From the NCBI GenBank assembly GCA_002714565.1, contig PAXU01000071.1:8841-19243 (forward strand): DNA of 10,403 bases, read 5' to 3'. Below the pieces are notes generated by a model that made no database searches, was not told the origin of the DNA, and saw nothing but the letters and a program-made list of their open reading frames with translations. Position 1 is the first letter of the stretch. Each line of letters begins with the position of its first letter. Source of the DNA: Rhodopirellula sp. (GTDB taxonomy: Bacteria > Planctomycetota > Planctomycetia > Pirellulales > Pirellulaceae). This document shows, one piece after another, positions 1,789 through 7,849 of the stretch. The translations under genes were made by a program, and so were the position numbers.

Positions 1789-1949
1789 CGATTACCTAAT
1801 GTGCGAAGACTCACGATTAAGAAATTACTATTGCAATGTACCTCTAAATCTACACGATATGGGGTGTGGATCGTGCGAACGCAGCATGATGAACTGACGA
1901 CCACGAAGGAGTCACCAGGTACAACGGTGACAGAAGTGGAAGCTGTATA
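1789..1949. other. Divergent intergenic region with a 6-bp inverted repeat
   Basis: No convincing gene is present. It must hold the start signals of the minus-strand MlrC-family gene and of the plus-strand unit at 1950-2145. On the plus strand TTGCAA (1831-1836) with ACGATA or CGATAT 17-18 bases later is a weak promoter candidate, which would give an RNA of roughly 280 bases ending at the terminator at 2145. A perfect inverted repeat, GTCACC (1911-1916) and GGTGAC (1926-1931) with a 9-base spacer, lies 22 bases before the ribosome binding site of the 14-codon frame. It could be an operator or a leader hairpin. GTCACC could also pair, with one G-U, to GGTGAT inside that ribosome binding site. 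Confidence 0.4.
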
Positions 1950-1952
1950 AAC

Positions 1953-1966
1953 GAAAGGAGGTGATC
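1953..1966 (+). promoter_or_regulatory. Exceptionally long Shine-Dalgarno sequence
   Basis: GAAAGGAGGTGATC is complementary over all 14 bases to the standard 3' tail of bacterial 16S rRNA (GATCACCTCCTTTC). It is followed by T and then a GTG codon at 1968, so the GGAGG core ends 6 bases before the start codon, a working distance. Ordinary sites pair over 4-7 bases, and most genes in this window have no clear site at all. The 16S gene of this organism is not in the window, so its tail is assumed to be standard. Confidence 0.75.
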
Positions 1967-1967
1967 T

Positions 1968-2012
1968 GTGGACCATTACGACTGTACAAGATTAAGAGGT
2001 GGAAACGCCTAA
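1968..2012 (+). CDS. 14-codon small ORF or leader peptide, unknown function
   Basis: A GTG start directly after the long ribosome binding site opens a frame that reads MDHYDCTRLRGGNA and stops at TAA (2010-2012). The peptide is too short to assign. It has an acidic-aromatic start and a basic-glycine end (RLRGG), with no membrane segment and no run of one amino acid of the kind that marks classical amino-acid attenuators. The end of the frame lies inside the GAAA-capped hairpin at 1997-2010, so a ribosome reaching the stop codon would open that hairpin. This is typical of leader peptides that sense translation, but no target is shown. The case for translation rests on the ribosome binding site alone. 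An RNA with this sequence could instead act by occupying ribosomes. Confidence 0.5.
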   Translation: MDHYDCTRLRGGNA

Positions 2013-2099
2013 TGCCAATCGGCGGATTGCCCGCATGGGCGTCCACCCACCTGAGACCGGTGCCGTGAAAACGGATGGATCAGGTCATATAAATGGTGC

Positions 2100-2145
2100 A
2101 ACCGTGTCGACGACTTCGGTAGTCTCGGCACGGTTGTTTTTTTTT
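2100..2145 (+). terminator. Strong intrinsic terminator of the small unit
   Basis: AACCGTG (2100-2106) pairs with CACGGTT (2129-2135). The stem continues inward through a T-G pair, CGA/TCG and GACT/AGTC, with one bulged C at 2111 and a TCGGT loop (2116-2120), for about 15 base pairs in total. A G and nine Ts (2137-2145) follow. This is the clearest terminator in the window. It separates the 14-codon unit from the promoter of the PSCyt2/PSD1 gene. Confidence 0.9.
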
Positions 2146-2255: not shown

Positions 2256-4445
2256 ATGAACCGCTGCTTTATCATCTTGGCATTGCTATGGATGCCATCA
2301 CAGCTAACCGGGCAAGAAGTAGCTGATCTGCCATGGGCTTTCCGGTCGCCACAATCGCCCGCCGTACCGATGGGTGATCAAATCAAGCATCCAGAGTTAG
2401 TACTGAACTCCATCGATGCCTTTATTCAAGCACGCCTCGACAGCATGAATCTTGCTCGTGCACCAAAAGCGGAGAAGCATACTCTGGTGCGACGTGCATA
2501 TTTCGATCTCATCGGGCTACCTCCATCTCCGGAACAGATCGAGGCCTTTGTTAACGATGAGAGTGGAAATGCATGGATCAATCTAATAAACAATTTGCTC
2601 GAGTCACCCCAATATGGAGAACGCTGGGGAAGGCACTGGCTGGACGTTGCTCGATATGCCGATTCGCAGGGATTCGAAGGCGACAACTCCATACCCAATG
2701 CCTGGCGATATCGGGATTACGTCATCAAGTCCTTTAACGACGACAAGCCGTACGATCAATTTGTACAGGAACAGATAGCGGCCGACGAAATCTGGCCGGA
2801 CAACCTGGATCTGGACCCCAAGCGTGTTTACATCCTGGCCGAGTCAAAACGTCGCAGCATGGAAGCACGCGTCGGCACAGGCTTTTTCGCATTAAGCCCT
2901 CAGGTTGCTGAGTCAGCATTGGATGCGCACAGGCTGAAGCACGAAACACTTACCGACTGGGTGGATACGACTACATCGGTATTCATGGGGCTGACCGTTG
3001 GCTGTGCACGATGTCACGAACACAAGTTCGACCCGATCAGCCAGGAAGACTATTACGCGATGCAGGCTATTTTCGCGCCGTCCACCAAAGAATATCTGCA
3101 TTTACACACACCAATGATGCGTGGTGACTGGCACTGGCTTTATCCGAGGCTAACAGCTGTAGAAGAAGCAAAGATTGCCTTAAAAGTGTTTCGATCTCGC
3201 ACCGGCGGTCGCGAGCTAAACGACGATGAAAAACAGCAACGCGAGCAATTACGTAACGCATTGATTGAGAGCGTAATGCGATTACCTGACAATGCAAACT
3301 CGGTGCCGAATGAGCCATTTGACATTTTAATGACGTCACCAACTGCAACAGTACTTGGGCATGATCATCCCAAACTTTTGAAACCTGTGCACTTTCTGGA
3401 TCGTGGAGAATTAGGTCACAAGGAACATGTGGTAAAAGCTGCAATTCCTGTTTCATTAGCTAACTCAACCGACCGTGACCCGGCCATCACGAAACCGTTT
3501 GAATCTCGCAAGGAATTCGCACTTTGGCTGACGCAATCTGACAATCCACTAACAGCGCGTGTCATGATGAATCGTATCTGGCAGTGGCACTTCGGCCGCG
3601 GCATTATATCCACCCCCAATGACTTCGGAGAAATGGGAGCAGCGCCAACCCATCCGGAATTACTGGATTGGCTAGCTCTGTCATTCATCGAACACAAATG
3701 GAGCATTAAGGAGATGCATCGCTTGATCATGACCAGCTACGCATATCAAGCCTCGAGCCAATTCGGCACCGACGAACACGAGCAGGTTGATCCTGACAAC
3801 AAGTATTTTTGGCGGATGAATCGTCGGCGCCTCGAAGCTGAAGCGTTATGGGACAGCGTACATGCTACTGCCGGCACAATTAACTTGAAGATGTATGGCC
3901 GCCCGGTTGTACCACCTCTGGCACCTGATGAAATCGCTGCATTACGGGAGAAATGGCAATGGCCTATTTCCGGCGATCCTGCTGAACACACCCGCCGTGG
4001 AGTGTATATCATGGTTCGGCGCAATTTCCGATTCCCAATGTTTGAAGTGTTTGATGCACCCATTACATCCGTTAGTTGTCCGCAGCGCGATGTCACTACG
4101 GTTGCACCTCAAGCACTTTGGACGCTTAACAGCCCTTCGGTTTATCGACAAGCAAAGCACCTCGCCAACCGCCTGGTTCAAGCCAGCCCTAATGACCCAA
4201 ACGTGTGGGTGAAAACTTTGTGGAAAATCACGCTTGCCCGAACAATCACCGATCAAGAACGGGCGGAGGCCATCGACTTGCTTAATGCACTGGAGTCAGA
4301 TGCCGCAGAGAACTTGGAACAAACCAAAGCCAACATTGGTCAATTGGAAACGGAACTGGCAACATTAACACCGCAACGAGCTGCGGGACTCATCCATCTT
4401 TGCCTGACCGTTTACAACCTGAATGAATTCTCATTTGTTGACTGA
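2256..4445 (+). CDS. Secreted PSCyt2/PSD1 (DUF1549 and DUF1553) domain protein
   Basis: The 729-residue protein starts with a Sec-type signal peptide (MNRC, hydrophobic stretch to about residue 17, probable cut near 20). The PSCyt2/DUF1549 domain fills about residues 45-280, with ARAPKAEKHTLVRRAYFDLI (68-87) and LIGLPPSPEQ, YGERWGRHWLDVARYADSQG (120-139) and VGCARCHEHKFDPI (248-261). Cys250, Cys253 and His254 form a CxxCH motif of the kind that binds haem c. The PSD1/DUF1553 domain follows from about 415 (LTARVMMNRIWQWHFGRGI, 432-450; THPELLDWLA, 465-474) to the end, LCLTVYNLNEFSFVD, which is the usual family ending. A lysine- and glutamate-rich segment at 684-706 may be a coiled coil. No N-terminal PSCyt1 domain is present. 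The family is abundant in Planctomycetota; its biochemical role is not established, and haem binding here is inferred from the motif only. The ATG gives a clean signal peptide, although no strong ribosome binding site precedes it. The DUF1501 gene follows after 24 bases. Confidence 0.92.
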   Translation: MNRCFIILALLWMPSQLTGQEVADLPWAFRSPQSPAVPMGDQIKHPELVLNSIDAFIQARLDSMNLARAPKAEKHTLVRRAYFDLIGLPPSPEQIEAFVNDESGNAWINLINNLLESPQYGERWGRHWLDVARYADSQGFEGDNSIPNAWRYRDYVIKSFNDDKPYDQFVQEQIAADEIWPDNLDLDPKRVYILAESKRRSMEARVGTGFFALSPQVAESALDAHRLKHETLTDWVDTTTSVFMGLTVGCARCHEHKFDPISQEDYYAMQAIFAPSTKEYLHLHTPMMRGDWHWLYPRLTAVEEAKIALKVFRSRTGGRELNDDEKQQREQLRNALIESVMRLPDNANSVPNEPFDILMTSPTATVLGHDHPKLLKPVHFLDRGELGHKEHVVKAAIPVSLANSTDRDPAITKPFESRKEFALWLTQSDNPLTARVMMNRIWQWHFGRGIISTPNDFGEMGAAPTHPELLDWLALSFIEHKWSIKEMHRLIMTSYAYQASSQFGTDEHEQVDPDNKYFWRMNRRRLEAEALWDSVHATAGTINLKMYGRPVVPPLAPDEIAALREKWQWPISGDPAEHTRRGVYIMVRRNFRFPMFEVFDAPITSVSCPQRDVTTVAPQALWTLNSPSVYRQAKHLANRLVQASPNDPNVWVKTLWKITLARTITDQERAEAIDLLNALESDAAENLEQTKANIGQLETELATLTPQRAAGLIHLCLTVYNLNEFSFVD

Positions 4446-4469
4446 TATCGAAACAGTAAAGAATACGAA

Positions 4470-5903
4470 ATGAATAATCCCTCAACGAATTGTTGTACTC
4501 AACAGAAAATGCCAGGCGTCTACACGCGTCGTCAAGCACTTTCACAATTTGGGATGGGATTAGGAGCATTTGGTCTCGCTGACCTTCTTGCCCGCGATTC
4601 GTATTCACAGGAAGGGGTAGGGGCGAGAGAGGACTCCCTGCCAGGCACGGCGGAGCACGTCATCTGGCTTTTCATGCAGGGTGGACCTAGTCAAGTTGAG
4701 ACGTTTGACCCAAAGCCAGCTTTGGCTAAACATGATGGAAGCCTGTTACCAGAAGAATTTAAGAAGTTTGATCTGGCCCAAATTAACACGGCAGATGCCA
4801 AAGTCTTCGGACCGCAATTCGAATTTGCAAAGCATGGCGAATCAGGGCTTGAGATTTCCTCACTGTTCCCTGAAATCTCAAAGCATGCCGACAAGCTGGC
4901 GGTCGTACGTTCGTGTTATCACGAACTATTCATTCATGGCTCGGCCCTGACCATGATGCATACTGGCACTCGTCTGCTTGGGCACCCAAGTGCTGGATCG
5001 TGGGTCGTGTATGGCCTGGGAAGCGAGACGCAAAGCTTGCCAAGTTATGTTGCCATGACCGATTCAATGTTTAGAAACGGGACAGCTACGTTTAGCTCCG
5101 GATACCTGCCAGCGATATATCAGGGTACATACTTACGCACGACGGGCATGCCAATTCAGAATCTGGGAAGACCGAACGGACTCACAGAGACCAGCCAGAA
5201 ACGCGTGCTAGATCAACTCAAGAAGTGGAATGGTCGGCACCGTGACAACCGACCGATCGATTCAAGACTAGATGCCCGAATTTCGAATTATGAACTTGCT
5301 TTTCAAATGCAAATGGCCGCTCCGGAGCTGATAGATCTTTCAAAGGAAACAGCGGCCACCAAAGAGCTTTACGGCATCGATGGCTCGGCGACCGATGCAT
5401 TTGGAAAAATGTGCTTGATGTCTCGACGAATGGTCGAGCGTGGCGTGCGTTACATGCACCTAGTTGATGCGGACTGGGATGCACACGGTGATGTAAAGGG
5501 TAATCATCAGTCCAGAGGGAAGGCCGTGGACAAACCCATCGCGGGTTTACTTGCTGATCTGGAGGCGCGAGGTCTTCTGGAAAAGACGCTTGTGGTTTGG
5601 TCAGGCGAATTTGGACGAACGCCCATCATGCAAGGCAGTAATGGACGTGACCATCATCCATATGGTTTCAGCATCTGGATGGCAGGTGGCGGCATTAAAG
5701 GCGGTAAGGTCATCGGCGCTACTGATGACTTTGGCTTTAATGCCGTTGAAGATCGATTTCACGTAAACGACCTGCACGCCACGATGATGTCTTTACTCGG
5801 AGTCAATCACGAAGAACTTACATATCTCTTTGAAGGTCGAGAACGCCGGTTAACGGATGTCGGTGGCCAAAATGACATCTCACGCCGATTGGTCGAAGGC
5901 TAA
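4470..5903 (+). CDS. DUF1501 domain protein with Tat signal
   Basis: A 477-residue DUF1501 protein, a family related to the alkaline phosphatase/sulfatase fold. The N-terminus has a twin-arginine motif, TRRQALSQFG (Arg20, Arg21), followed by a hydrophobic stretch to about residue 41, so export of a folded protein through Tat is likely. Family landmarks are IWLFMQGGPSQVETFDPKPA (65-84), CYHELFIHGSA (149-159), the metal-site-like DADWDAHGD (333-341), VVWSGEFGRTP (375-385), GRDHHPYGFSIWMAGGGIKG (392-411) and HVNDLHATMMSLLGV (431-445). The length is normal. DUF1501 genes commonly follow PSCyt2/PSD1 genes in Planctomycetota, and here the gap is 24 bases. The pair probably works together outside the cytoplasm. 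The substrate is unknown and hydrolase activity is inferred from the fold. Confidence 0.92.
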   Translation: MNNPSTNCCTQQKMPGVYTRRQALSQFGMGLGAFGLADLLARDSYSQEGVGAREDSLPGTAEHVIWLFMQGGPSQVETFDPKPALAKHDGSLLPEEFKKFDLAQINTADAKVFGPQFEFAKHGESGLEISSLFPEISKHADKLAVVRSCYHELFIHGSALTMMHTGTRLLGHPSAGSWVVYGLGSETQSLPSYVAMTDSMFRNGTATFSSGYLPAIYQGTYLRTTGMPIQNLGRPNGLTETSQKRVLDQLKKWNGRHRDNRPIDSRLDARISNYELAFQMQMAAPELIDLSKETAATKELYGIDGSATDAFGKMCLMSRRMVERGVRYMHLVDADWDAHGDVKGNHQSRGKAVDKPIAGLLADLEARGLLEKTLVVWSGEFGRTPIMQGSNGRDHHPYGFSIWMAGGGIKGGKVIGATDDFGFNAVEDRFHVNDLHATMMSLLGVNHEELTYLFEGRERRLTDVGGQNDISRRLVEG

Positions 5904-5947
5904 TCAATATTCTGTTTCGCACAAACAATTAACAACCATTGTGCCCT

Positions 5948-5951
5948 GGAG
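5948..5951 (+). promoter_or_regulatory. Ribosome binding site that sets the amidase start
   Basis: GGAG lies 8 bases before the ATG at 5960. A TTG codon in the same frame at 5939 opens a frame 7 codons longer, but it lies upstream of this site and has no ribosome binding site of its own. The ATG is therefore preferred. Confidence 0.6.
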
Positions 5952-5959
5952 TCTACCAC

Positions 5960-6856
5960 ATGCATAAACTTCCTCTTGGACCACTTTACTACGAATACAG
6001 TCGCCATAACGAGCCACGTCTTACGATCGAATCTGGTGACAGCGTCGAAGTCGAAGCGGAAGATGCGTTTTCCGGTCAAATTCGAAGCAATGATGATCGA
6101 CGTGACAAATCCAAGCGTCCGTTTGGAAATCCTCAAACCGGACCTATTTATGTGAACGGTGCTAGTCCCGGAGACACGCTGGCCGTGAAGATTGAATCGA
6201 TCGAACCACTGAACGGTCAATGTGCGACGCGAACGAGCGATCCTAACCAAATGTGCCAATGGTTAGGAACGGATTGTCACCACGGAACACATGTCTGCCC
6301 GATTTCAGATGGTGTTATTCACTGGAGCGACGACTTGAAGATCCCATATACACCAATGCTTGGCTGTATTGGCACATCTCCGGCAACCACCGTACCGGGC
6401 ACTGGGCCGGCAGGCCCTCACGGTGGCAATATGGATATCATCGAAACTTGTCCAGGCAATACCATTTACCTGCCGGTATATGTCGATGGAGCATTTTTGT
6501 ACCTGGGAGATGCACACGCAGCTATGGGGCATGGCGAACTCTCTGCATCCGGCCTGGAGATGGCGTCGCGCAGCGTCATTACGGTCAATGTTCTAAAAGG
6601 TAAGACTATCGAGTGGCCTCGTATTGAATCCCCCGATGAAATCATGGTCGTGGTTAGTGAGACACCAATGGAACGCAGTATTGCTCATGCTTCCGCACTG
6701 CTTATCCTGTGGATGGAGGAGGAGTTCGGTTGGGACCGTTGGCGGGCTTACGACATTTTGACGCATGTCATGCAAATCTCAATTGGGTATTACGGTATAG
6801 GCACCGTTGCCTGCAAGATTGCTAAGGAGCACCTTGCCAAACCGAGCGTTTTATAA
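5960..6856 (+). CDS. Acetamidase/formamidase family amidase
   Basis: From the ATG at 5960 the protein has 298 residues and matches the acetamidase/formamidase family (FmdA/AmdA). These enzymes hydrolyse short amides such as formamide or acetamide to ammonia and the carboxylate in the cytoplasm. Landmarks are NPQTGPIYVNGASPGDTLAV (57-76), PMLGCIGTSP (132-141), the glycine-rich GPAGPHGGNMD (149-159), IYLPVYVDGAFLYLGDAHAA (169-188) and MGHGE (189-193), and the C-terminal helix with ISIGYYGIGTVACKIAK (273-289). Asp184, His186 and Glu193 lie in the segment most conserved in the family. No signal peptide is visible. Cysteine-histidine clusters (Cys88, Cys99, Cys106, His107, His108, His111, Cys113) occur in the middle region. 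It lies 56 bases after the DUF1501 stop and 21 bases before the dehydrogenase. The family is clear; the exact amide is not. Ammonia release fits a nitrogen-scavenging role next to a peptidase, which is inference. Confidence 0.9.
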   Translation: MHKLPLGPLYYEYSRHNEPRLTIESGDSVEVEAEDAFSGQIRSNDDRRDKSKRPFGNPQTGPIYVNGASPGDTLAVKIESIEPLNGQCATRTSDPNQMCQWLGTDCHHGTHVCPISDGVIHWSDDLKIPYTPMLGCIGTSPATTVPGTGPAGPHGGNMDIIETCPGNTIYLPVYVDGAFLYLGDAHAAMGHGELSASGLEMASRSVITVNVLKGKTIEWPRIESPDEIMVVVSETPMERSIAHASALLILWMEEEFGWDRWRAYDILTHVMQISIGYYGIGTVACKIAKEHLAKPSVL

Positions 6857-6877
6857 ACACACCAACTCAAAACCCCT

Positions 6878-7849
6878 ATGGCAAGAATCTTAATAACGGA
6901 ACAGATCGATGGTGCGGCTGTTGATCAGCTAAGTCAGAACCACGAAGTCTTGATTGAGCATCGCTTGTGGTCAGATATGGAGCAACTTAAAGCACGATCG
7001 GTTGATATCGATGCCATCATTGTTCGCAATCAAACCCAGGTAACCGCGGATCTCATACAATCTGCCAGTCATCTGAAAGTCATCGGACGCGCTGGAGCAG
7101 GGCTCGATAACATCGATTGTGATGCGGCAAGTAAAGCCAATGTCGTCGTCTGCTATACGCCTTCAGAAAACTCGTTGAGTGTCGCCGAACTGGTGATGGG
7201 GTATATGCTCTCACTGGCGCGGGATATTCCTGCAGCACAGCAAAGCACATCTAAAGGGAATTGGGAACGTAAACGCTTTACCGGAAGCGAATTGTCCGGC
7301 AAAACACTGGGGATTATCGGATTCGGTCGCATCGGTACCCTTGTGGCAGAGCGAGCCAATGCATTTGGTATGACGGTCATCGCACATGACGAGTTTCTTA
7401 CCCCTGATGCACCTCATCTTCTGGAGAACGATGTTGAATTGATGGGATTGAGCGACCTCTTGAGCCAGTCTGACTTTGTGTCTTGCCATACCCCGTTAAC
7501 CGAAGATACAAGAGGCTTTGTAAATAGCGACTTTCTTTCTCAAATGAAGCATAACGCCTACCTCATTAATGCATCGCGAGGTGAAGTGATAAACGAGTCG
7601 GATTTGGTGGTGGCATTGGAATCTGAAAAACTTTCTGGAGCAGCACTAGATGTGCGTGAAGTTGAGCCACCGATTGCGGGTAAGTTGGAAGAGATGACAA
7701 ATGTGCTGTTAACACCACACATCGGTGCATTTACGCGAGAAGCTCAAGACCGTGTCATCGAGCGAGTTTGCCATGATGTAGACGCTGTATTGCATGGTGA
7801 GCCGGCAACGAGTTTTTTCAATTTCCCCCTACCCAATTCCCAACCGTGA
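6878..7849 (+). CDS. NAD-dependent D-2-hydroxyacid dehydrogenase (SerA-like, short form)
   Basis: A 323-residue member of the D-isomer-specific 2-hydroxyacid dehydrogenase family, which reversibly oxidises D-2-hydroxyacids with NAD. The substrate-domain segment VIGRAGAGLDNIDCDAASKA (68-87) is followed by the Rossmann motif GIIGFGRIG (145-153). Asp171 ends the second strand and favours NAD over NADP. The catalytic residues are seen as Arg234 in NASRGEVINE, Glu263 in DVREVEPP and His281 in TPHIGAF. The C-terminal ACT regulatory domain of long phosphoglycerate dehydrogenases is absent, so it may be a short-form SerA or an enzyme for another hydroxyacid such as glycerate, glyoxylate or a catabolic intermediate. 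No strong ribosome binding site precedes the ATG, which lies 21 bases after the amidase stop. The stop (7847-7849) is one base from the next ATG, suggesting coupled translation. Confidence 0.92.
   Translation: MARILITEQIDGAAVDQLSQNHEVLIEHRLWSDMEQLKARSVDIDAIIVRNQTQVTADLIQSASHLKVIGRAGAGLDNIDCDAASKANVVVCYTPSENSLSVAELVMGYMLSLARDIPAAQQSTSKGNWERKRFTGSELSGKTLGIIGFGRIGTLVAERANAFGMTVIAHDEFLTPDAPHLLENDVELMGLSDLLSQSDFVSCHTPLTEDTRGFVNSDFLSQMKHNAYLINASRGEVINESDLVVALESEKLSGAALDVREVEPPIAGKLEEMTNVLLTPHIGAFTREAQDRVIERVCHDVDAVLHGEPATSFFNFPLPNSQP

Follow-up and report, generated by a model that had tools for sequence, protein, structure and literature searches.

The window analysed here, a stretch of 10,403 nucleotides from Rhodopirellula sp., carries a very short open reading frame (ORF) behind a long Shine-Dalgarno (SD) sequence, in the intergenic space that separates a PSCyt2/PSD1 gene from a divergent M81/MlrC gene. 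The question raised by this locus is whether such an arrangement constitutes a gene for a small peptide, a leader that controls its neighbour, or an RNA that works through its own structure and translation.

Extent, distribution and novelty of the unit

The initial annotation had placed a self-contained small transcription unit at positions 1950 to 2145. Its main parts are present, but the real start appears to lie about 84 bases further upstream, and the larger unit, on the forward strand at approximately 1866–2145, takes in an additional hairpin (P1) and an arm (P2) and is preceded by a promoter-like site (Table 1). We infer from the sequence a transcript that starts near 1866 and ends at about 2145, apparently a free-standing structured RNA of around 260–290 nt with a short ORF of its own.

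Table 1. Features of the unit, with positions in the window
Feature	Position	Strand	Basis or remark
−35-like TTGCAA	1831..1836	+	TTG spacing across members
−10-like CACGAT/CGATAT, spacer 16 or 18	1853..1860	+	best-scoring hexamers
P1 hairpin ATCGTGC-GAACGCA-GCATGAT, loop ~ACGCA conserved	1870..1890	+	family alignment
P2 arm, CCAC/GTGG and GTCACC/GGTGAC, loop AGGTACAAC (1917–1925)	1901..1939	+	fold, alignment
Pseudoknot (PK), 5′ strand GTACA in the P2 loop	1919..1923	+	complementary to TGTAC (1983–1987) in the ORF
Shine-Dalgarno GAAAGGAGGTGATC	1953..1966	+	14-base complement of the 16S 3′ end
Mini-ORF, GTG start, 14 sense codons and TAA, MDHYDCTRLRGGNA	1968..2012	+	ORF in relatives
PK, 3′ strand TGTAC (codons TGT ACA) inside the ORF	1983..1987	+	complementarity
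P3, 5′ strand GAGGTGG (RGG codons)	1996..2002	+	similar to the SD core; its end lies 4 nt from the last sense codon
P4 hairpin CAATC-GGCG-GATTG, right after the stop codon	2016..2029	+	alignment
P3, 3′ strand CCACC	2043..2047	+	pairs with the RGG codons
P5 hairpin ACCTGA...TCAGGT, containing GGATCAGG (2077–2084)	2049..2085	+	predicted fold
Intrinsic terminator, long stem and T9	2099..2145	+	predicted fold; family comparison

Upstream of the unit, 64 of 66 members have a TTG at a distance of 44–58 nt from the P1 loop, whereas the mean density of this triplet there (0.038 per position) would predict one in about 44%. The −10-like hexamers are the best matches chosen by a script, without a control. 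At the other end, the proposed nine-T terminator with its long stem was borne out: the strands CAACCGTG and CACGGTTG occupy 2099–2106 and 2129–2136 and are followed by nine T at 2137–2145, the run being of seven T in the relatives G001 and G003. A terminator-like hairpin with a T run occurs in 60 of 77 members, compared with 21 of 231 shuffles. The predicted fold of 1950–2145 reaches −74.8 kcal/mol (z −4.2, equalled by 0 of 200 shuffles), and that of the whole unit, 1866–2145, reaches −99.2 (z −3.0, equalled by 1 of 200).

Among 60 relatives, blastn detected nearly the whole unit in two genomes, G001 (99%) and G003 (88%). Matches in the other relatives were weak, several of them starting at the SD, and the weakly matching loci, when read directly, displayed the same anatomy at low identity. 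A degenerate pattern run over a genome contig collection returned 67 stretches with one match each; by title, 64 are planctomycete (some of the genera named being ones that we take to be planctomycetes), two are only 'bacterium' and one is candidate division TA06. This last record, JADFOU010000059.1 (positions 979–1093), is a typical member of the RNA; it may be a planctomycete contig that was mis-binned or mislabelled, or the result of a transfer.

With a covariance model built from nine members (R1), 216 of 397 class genomes gave a match; one built from 94 members (R2) found matches in 257 of the 397, in 126 of 186 genera, and none in the other 140 genomes. These searches used rough E-values, with strict filtering of the large searches and 9–12 candidates scored per genome. 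R2 found one match per genome, except for two in G307, although a second divergent copy could be missed because only nine candidates per genome were scored. The two matches of G307 (C12:32-140 and C14:211445-211553) have equal scores and one lies at a contig edge, so that the second is possibly an assembly duplicate. Cultured carriers of the RNA include Blastopirellula marina DSM 3645 (locus L108) and Thalassoglobus neptunius KOR42 (L061). When 20 genomes missed by model R1 were searched more laxly with R2, one gave a match at E 0.01 and another three gave matches of up to E 1; the RNA has therefore been lost or is very divergent in some genomes. In a sample of 294 genomes from the phylum, 20 matches were obtained, all in the same class or nearer, and distant blastn of 1860–2260 revealed no plasmid copies. 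This conservation rejects a chance origin.

The unit does not correspond to a catalogued RNA in the searches performed. Against Rfam 15, the window has no match at the gathering score and, at E 10, only two matches far below it (E 6.8 and 8.6), and in 15 member loci only tRNAs were found, none of them over the element. ARAGORN finds no tmRNA in the window, a separate tmRNA match lying elsewhere in the host genome (G000:C5:52039-52401). The 6S RNA model (RF00013), which finds 5 of 14 controls, finds none in the window or in the host genome. A known Rfam RNA, a tRNA, tmRNA or 6S RNA was rejected as the identity of the unit because the window searches found none. No description of this RNA was found in the literature searched, in which the one lead is the Rhodopirellula-1 motif, a candidate structured RNA from Proteobacteria and Planctomycetes, whose row in the published table has a 'y' in a column taken to mean cis-regulation (Weinberg 2010, PMC2864571). 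Both are candidate planctomycete structured RNAs; to judge from that table row, they would differ in that Rhodopirellula-1 includes Proteobacteria, whereas the records retrieved by our pattern are the 64 planctomycete-named, two 'bacterium' and one 'TA06' ones.

A conserved fold that involves the ORF

By-eye inspection of a plain MAFFT alignment (A5) of 53 of the 77 loci gave the shared structure, the 24 loci left out being in part near-duplicates and in part divergent or atypical. It comprises P1, the two P2 helices, P3, P4, an SD paired to an anti-SD-like GGATCACC further downstream, and a P2 loop paired to those ORF codons that precede RGG; for the alignment of all 77 members it was projected through locus L083. 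In A5, 88.1% of the cells pair, against 31–53% in slid versions. Changes on both sides occur there in 31 of 47 pairs, and shuffles yield 73 ± 11 double-changed cells where the alignment has 221. Over all 77 members, 85.5% of the cells pair (30–47% when slid), 33 of the 47 pairs have both-sided changes, and the double-changed cells number 313 against 108 ± 11, a value reached in 0 of 500 shuffles; since the members share ancestry, these shuffle controls overstate significance. Pairing conserved with compensatory changes, a test named beforehand in the initial annotation, is therefore found in the 33 both-sided pairs of the 77-member alignment.

The single helices differ in how regularly they are kept. 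Six of the pairs of P1 are formed in 94.6% of the cells over 77 members, all six with both-sided changes, and a stem of at least six pairs exists in 71 of 77, a few (e.g., L117, L059 and L099) having it at another position. The P2 helices are family-wide (77–86% of cells paired), the main P3 helix is paired in 96.3% of the cells, and P4 in 92.7%, with both-sided changes in four of its seven pairs. Minimum-energy folds of single members miss some of these helices, and pseudoknots cannot appear in such folds.

The pseudoknot between the P2 loop and the ORF changes its letters from lineage to lineage: the partners GTACA:TGTAC of the window lineage are elsewhere, for example, TGGCT:AGCCA, TTGGC:GCCAA, GCTGGT:ACCAGC or TCGGC:GCCGA. 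This helix alone accounts for 24 double-changed cells against 10.2 ± 4.4 in shuffles, with its outermost three pairs formed in only 54% of the cells over all 77 members. In a focused test with Watson-Crick pairs only, the own partner scored 4.96 and swapped partners 4.40 ± 0.10 (0 of 300 as high). Among 20 loci fetched later, one (L177) is identical to L090, which is part of R2; the 19 outside both models gave 4.84 against 4.27 ± 0.17 (1 of 500). An untargeted test of complementarity between P2 and the ORF was not significant (own 14.76, swapped 14.63 ± 0.23), and neither was the focused test with G-U pairs allowed (29 of 300).

Downstream, the locally predicted P5 fold of 43 of 53 members takes up both the anti-SD and the outer strand of P3, GGATCAGG at 2077–2084 being the local form of GGATCACC; covariation of inner P5 is modest, 21–49 of 500 shuffles being as high. 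As far as the alignments and predicted folds indicate, P3 and the pseudoknot would pair codons of the ORF, and P5 would compete for the outer strand of P3 and with the SD:anti-SD pairing. The two GAAA hairpins of the initial annotation (1998–2009 and 2063–2074) can be drawn, but they fall outside the conserved structure. Of the 77 aligned members, just the window's own locus, L065 and L079 have the first, GGTGG pairing with CCACC in the others, and the loop of the second reads GTCA in the relative G003. GAAA tetraloops were consequently rejected as defining features because they are lineage-specific.

The mini-ORF and its Shine-Dalgarno sequence

The 14-codon frame first reported, GTG to TAA, was confirmed. 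An ORF is found in 74 of 74 unique cores, which come from 97 of 107 loci; the remaining ten, read separately, have a 13-codon ORF in 10 of 10, and the loci fetched later, largely from other families, have ORFs of 10–14 codons in 20 of 20. Its length is 12–18 codons in the 74 cores and 10–18 across all members. In the cores, the start is GTG (67), TTG (6) or ATG (1), and the stop TAG (26), TAA (24) or TGA (24). The first GTG or ATG after the SD, present in 72 of 76 members, is in frame in 72 of 72, and 76 of 78 unique members have a frame that reaches past RGG. Over the same span, stops interrupt frame +1 in 29 of 76 and frame +2 in 64 of 76, frame 0 being open in 76 of 76 by construction, as the span ends at its first stop.

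These counts bear on the idea that the RNA is structured and non-coding, with an ORF that is merely incidental. Constraint at the RNA level accounts for the conserved codons, and frame +1 is also often open over the ORF (47 of 76), both of which suit this idea; against it, a start at SD distance, the frame and the position of the stop all survive codon-sized changes of length (10–18 codons), and the stop codons interchange, which makes an incidental ORF very unlikely. In the window lineage, the stop overlaps an ATG (TAATG, 2010–2014) that would open a second frame of 18 codons; the site is TAGCG, TAAGG or similar in many other members.

A micro-mRNA, whose product would be the peptide of 10–18 residues and whose RNA structure would merely control its translation, agrees with the conserved start, stop and frame, with RGG in 76 of 78 unique ORFs and with TGT (Cys) as codon 5 in 54 of 78. 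Substitutions were counted in 102 close pairs, which are non-independent, and compared with a neutral expectation that assumes equal rates. The SQRGG codons have a synonymous excess (63 synonymous to 48 non-synonymous changes, for an expected synonymous fraction of 0.27), also in line with a selected peptide. Yet these are the paired codons, the first Gly codon being GGT in 76 of 76, and pairing or peptide selection could each produce such an excess. The codons before SQ, with 21 synonymous and 111 non-synonymous changes (0.16, where the neutral expectation is 0.16), and the tail of the ORF, with 6 and 55, lack it, and therefore translation seems to be conserved more than the peptide. Moreover, in several of the later loci RGG gives way to PGG, WGG, IGG or RGD, or disappears (NQGRLA type), and yet P3 pairs by eye, as it also does in L034 (VGS) and L135 (GVD). 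A peptide as the functional product is, for these reasons, unlikely. We conclude that it is mainly translation up to a stop in front of P4 that appears to be kept, with codons that would be largely dictated by pairing.

The 14-base anti-SD match of the initial annotation held when compared with the 3′ end of the host genome's own 16S rRNA (GGATCACCTCCTTTC). In this genome, searched over 4.5 Mb at 89% completeness, AAAGGAGGTGRTC occurs twice, once in this unit and once as the antisense of the 16S 3′ end, and the looser AAAGGAGGTGRTY has one to four occurrences in each of eight genomes. The SD pairs with the downstream GGATCACC in most members, and a comparison of own with shuffled partners, made on 75 of 78 loci, gave 0 of 2000 as high. 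Several lineages have a weak anti-SD or none, among them the window's own, which keeps only five pairs. In one genus (g60: L124, L126, L128, L130, L132–L134 and L136), the SD has changed to AAAGGAGGTGTTCC and reads GGTGTTCC, and in these eight loci the changed SD is matched by a changed anti-SD-like partner, GGAACC.

The RGG segment repeats the core of the SD, with an identical 7-mer in 45 of 76 members. The distance from the end of the SD core to the start codon is 4 nt in 59 of 76 and 3 nt in 15 of 76; that from the end of the internal GAGGTGG to the last sense codon is 4 nt in 67 of 76 and 7 nt in 9 of 76. Such an SD-like copy near the last codon would suit a held terminating ribosome. GAGGTGG is replaced by GGGGCGG or similar in five f21/f23 loci (L165–L168 and L184). 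A stop with its own SD was rejected as the main mechanism, for it fits 67 of 76 members and not these five loci.

It could be proposed from these data that the RNA is a trap or decoy, in which the SD and the SD-like GAGGTGG before the stop hold 30S subunits or terminating ribosomes and so titrate them. The 14-base complement to 16S rRNA, the rarity of AAAGGAGGTGRTC and AAAGGAGGTGRTY and the similar spacing of both elements (4 nt) speak for a trap, but some members lack the second SD, helices concealing the SD would work against a trap, and titration would demand very high expression. A trap is accordingly rather unlikely.

Genomic context and a possible ribosome-operated switch

A short ORF followed by a terminator is the classic anatomy of a cis-acting leader or attenuator, and in the window the PSCyt2/PSD1 gene starts 110 bases past the T run on the same strand. 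At 2256–7849 come PSCyt2/PSD1 (DUF1549/DUF1553) genes and DUF1501 genes, and after them FmdA_AmdA and a 2-hydroxyacid dehydrogenase. Control of the downstream gene is nevertheless hardly probable at all. The flanking ORFs of 67 loci have no common family, the largest cluster comprising 5 of the 67, in a clustering that took up to two ORFs per side of at least 90 aa and in which some loci have few flanks. The orientation is mixed, with the downstream ORF on the same strand in 34 of 60, and the terminator is, by eye, clear of the switching helices in the loci inspected. The lack of a shared neighbour family therefore disfavours a cis leader and favours a role that is self-contained or exerted in trans.

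The proposal of a previously undescribed small-RNA, small-peptide or attenuation system thus stands in part. A small structured RNA, conserved in the class and without a match in Rfam 15, is retained; the attenuation part is not, given flanking genes that are not conserved, and the small-peptide part is weakened by amino-acid changes that are as frequent as neutral outside the paired codons.

The best reading of these data, to which we give a probability of about one half, is a ribosome-operated RNA switch acting in trans. Sequence comparison supports its components: helices P1–P4, the pairing of the P2 loop with the ORF, that of RGG with CCACC, that of the SD with GGATCACC in most members, an open ORF and no conserved neighbour. 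Without a ribosome, the ORF would be buried in the fold, with the SD, the pseudoknot and P3 paired. A 30S subunit recruited by the near-perfect SD would then invade the fold, and the ribosome would read 10–18 codons and halt before P4, breaking the pseudoknot and P3 as it reads. The freed outer strand of P3 and the anti-SD would fold into the competing hairpin P5, so that the translated and untranslated forms would differ in their 3′ half. This half may act in trans on an RNA or a protein, or set the lifetime of the RNA, and would provide a readout of translation capacity.

Such a switch would share features with several known systems. Attenuators of the trp, erm and tna type have a short ORF behind an SD, with codons in competing helices. 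The RNA described here likewise has a very short ORF behind an SD and, by prediction, codons in competing helices, and, as in leader-peptide attenuators, the position of the ribosome is proposed to decide the fold. In contrast to them, no conserved regulated gene follows, the terminator lies after the switching helices, and the peptides lack an obvious run of one regulatory amino acid. Like tmRNA, it is structured, with a short in-built ORF and a pseudoknot, and is present once per genome. tmRNA has a tRNA-like domain and a tag ORF without a start of its own, whereas the ORF of this RNA comes with an SD and a start codon of its own. With the dual-function sRNAs (SgrS/SgrT, RNAIII and SR1) it has in common a small transcript with a short ORF, a promoter and a terminator, the transcript, promoter and terminator being predicted here. 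The peptide is the functional product in those sRNAs; in this RNA, unlike them, the peptide looks neutral at most positions and the conserved fold draws the ORF itself into pairing.

It is tentatively suggested, with somewhat less confidence than the switch itself, that this could be the first free-standing ribosome-operated switch, one whose signal would be the translation of an almost arbitrary peptide and which would report free-ribosome or initiation capacity in trans. Being usually single-copy, kept through much of a deep class and without a match in Rfam 15, the RNA likely has a basic role. Conserved translation without a conserved peptide would part two things that are usually taken together, and calls for caution in the annotation of tiny ORFs, which can mistake translation as a signal for peptide genes. 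In planctomycetes, it would make the sensing of a cell's own translation capacity directly testable.
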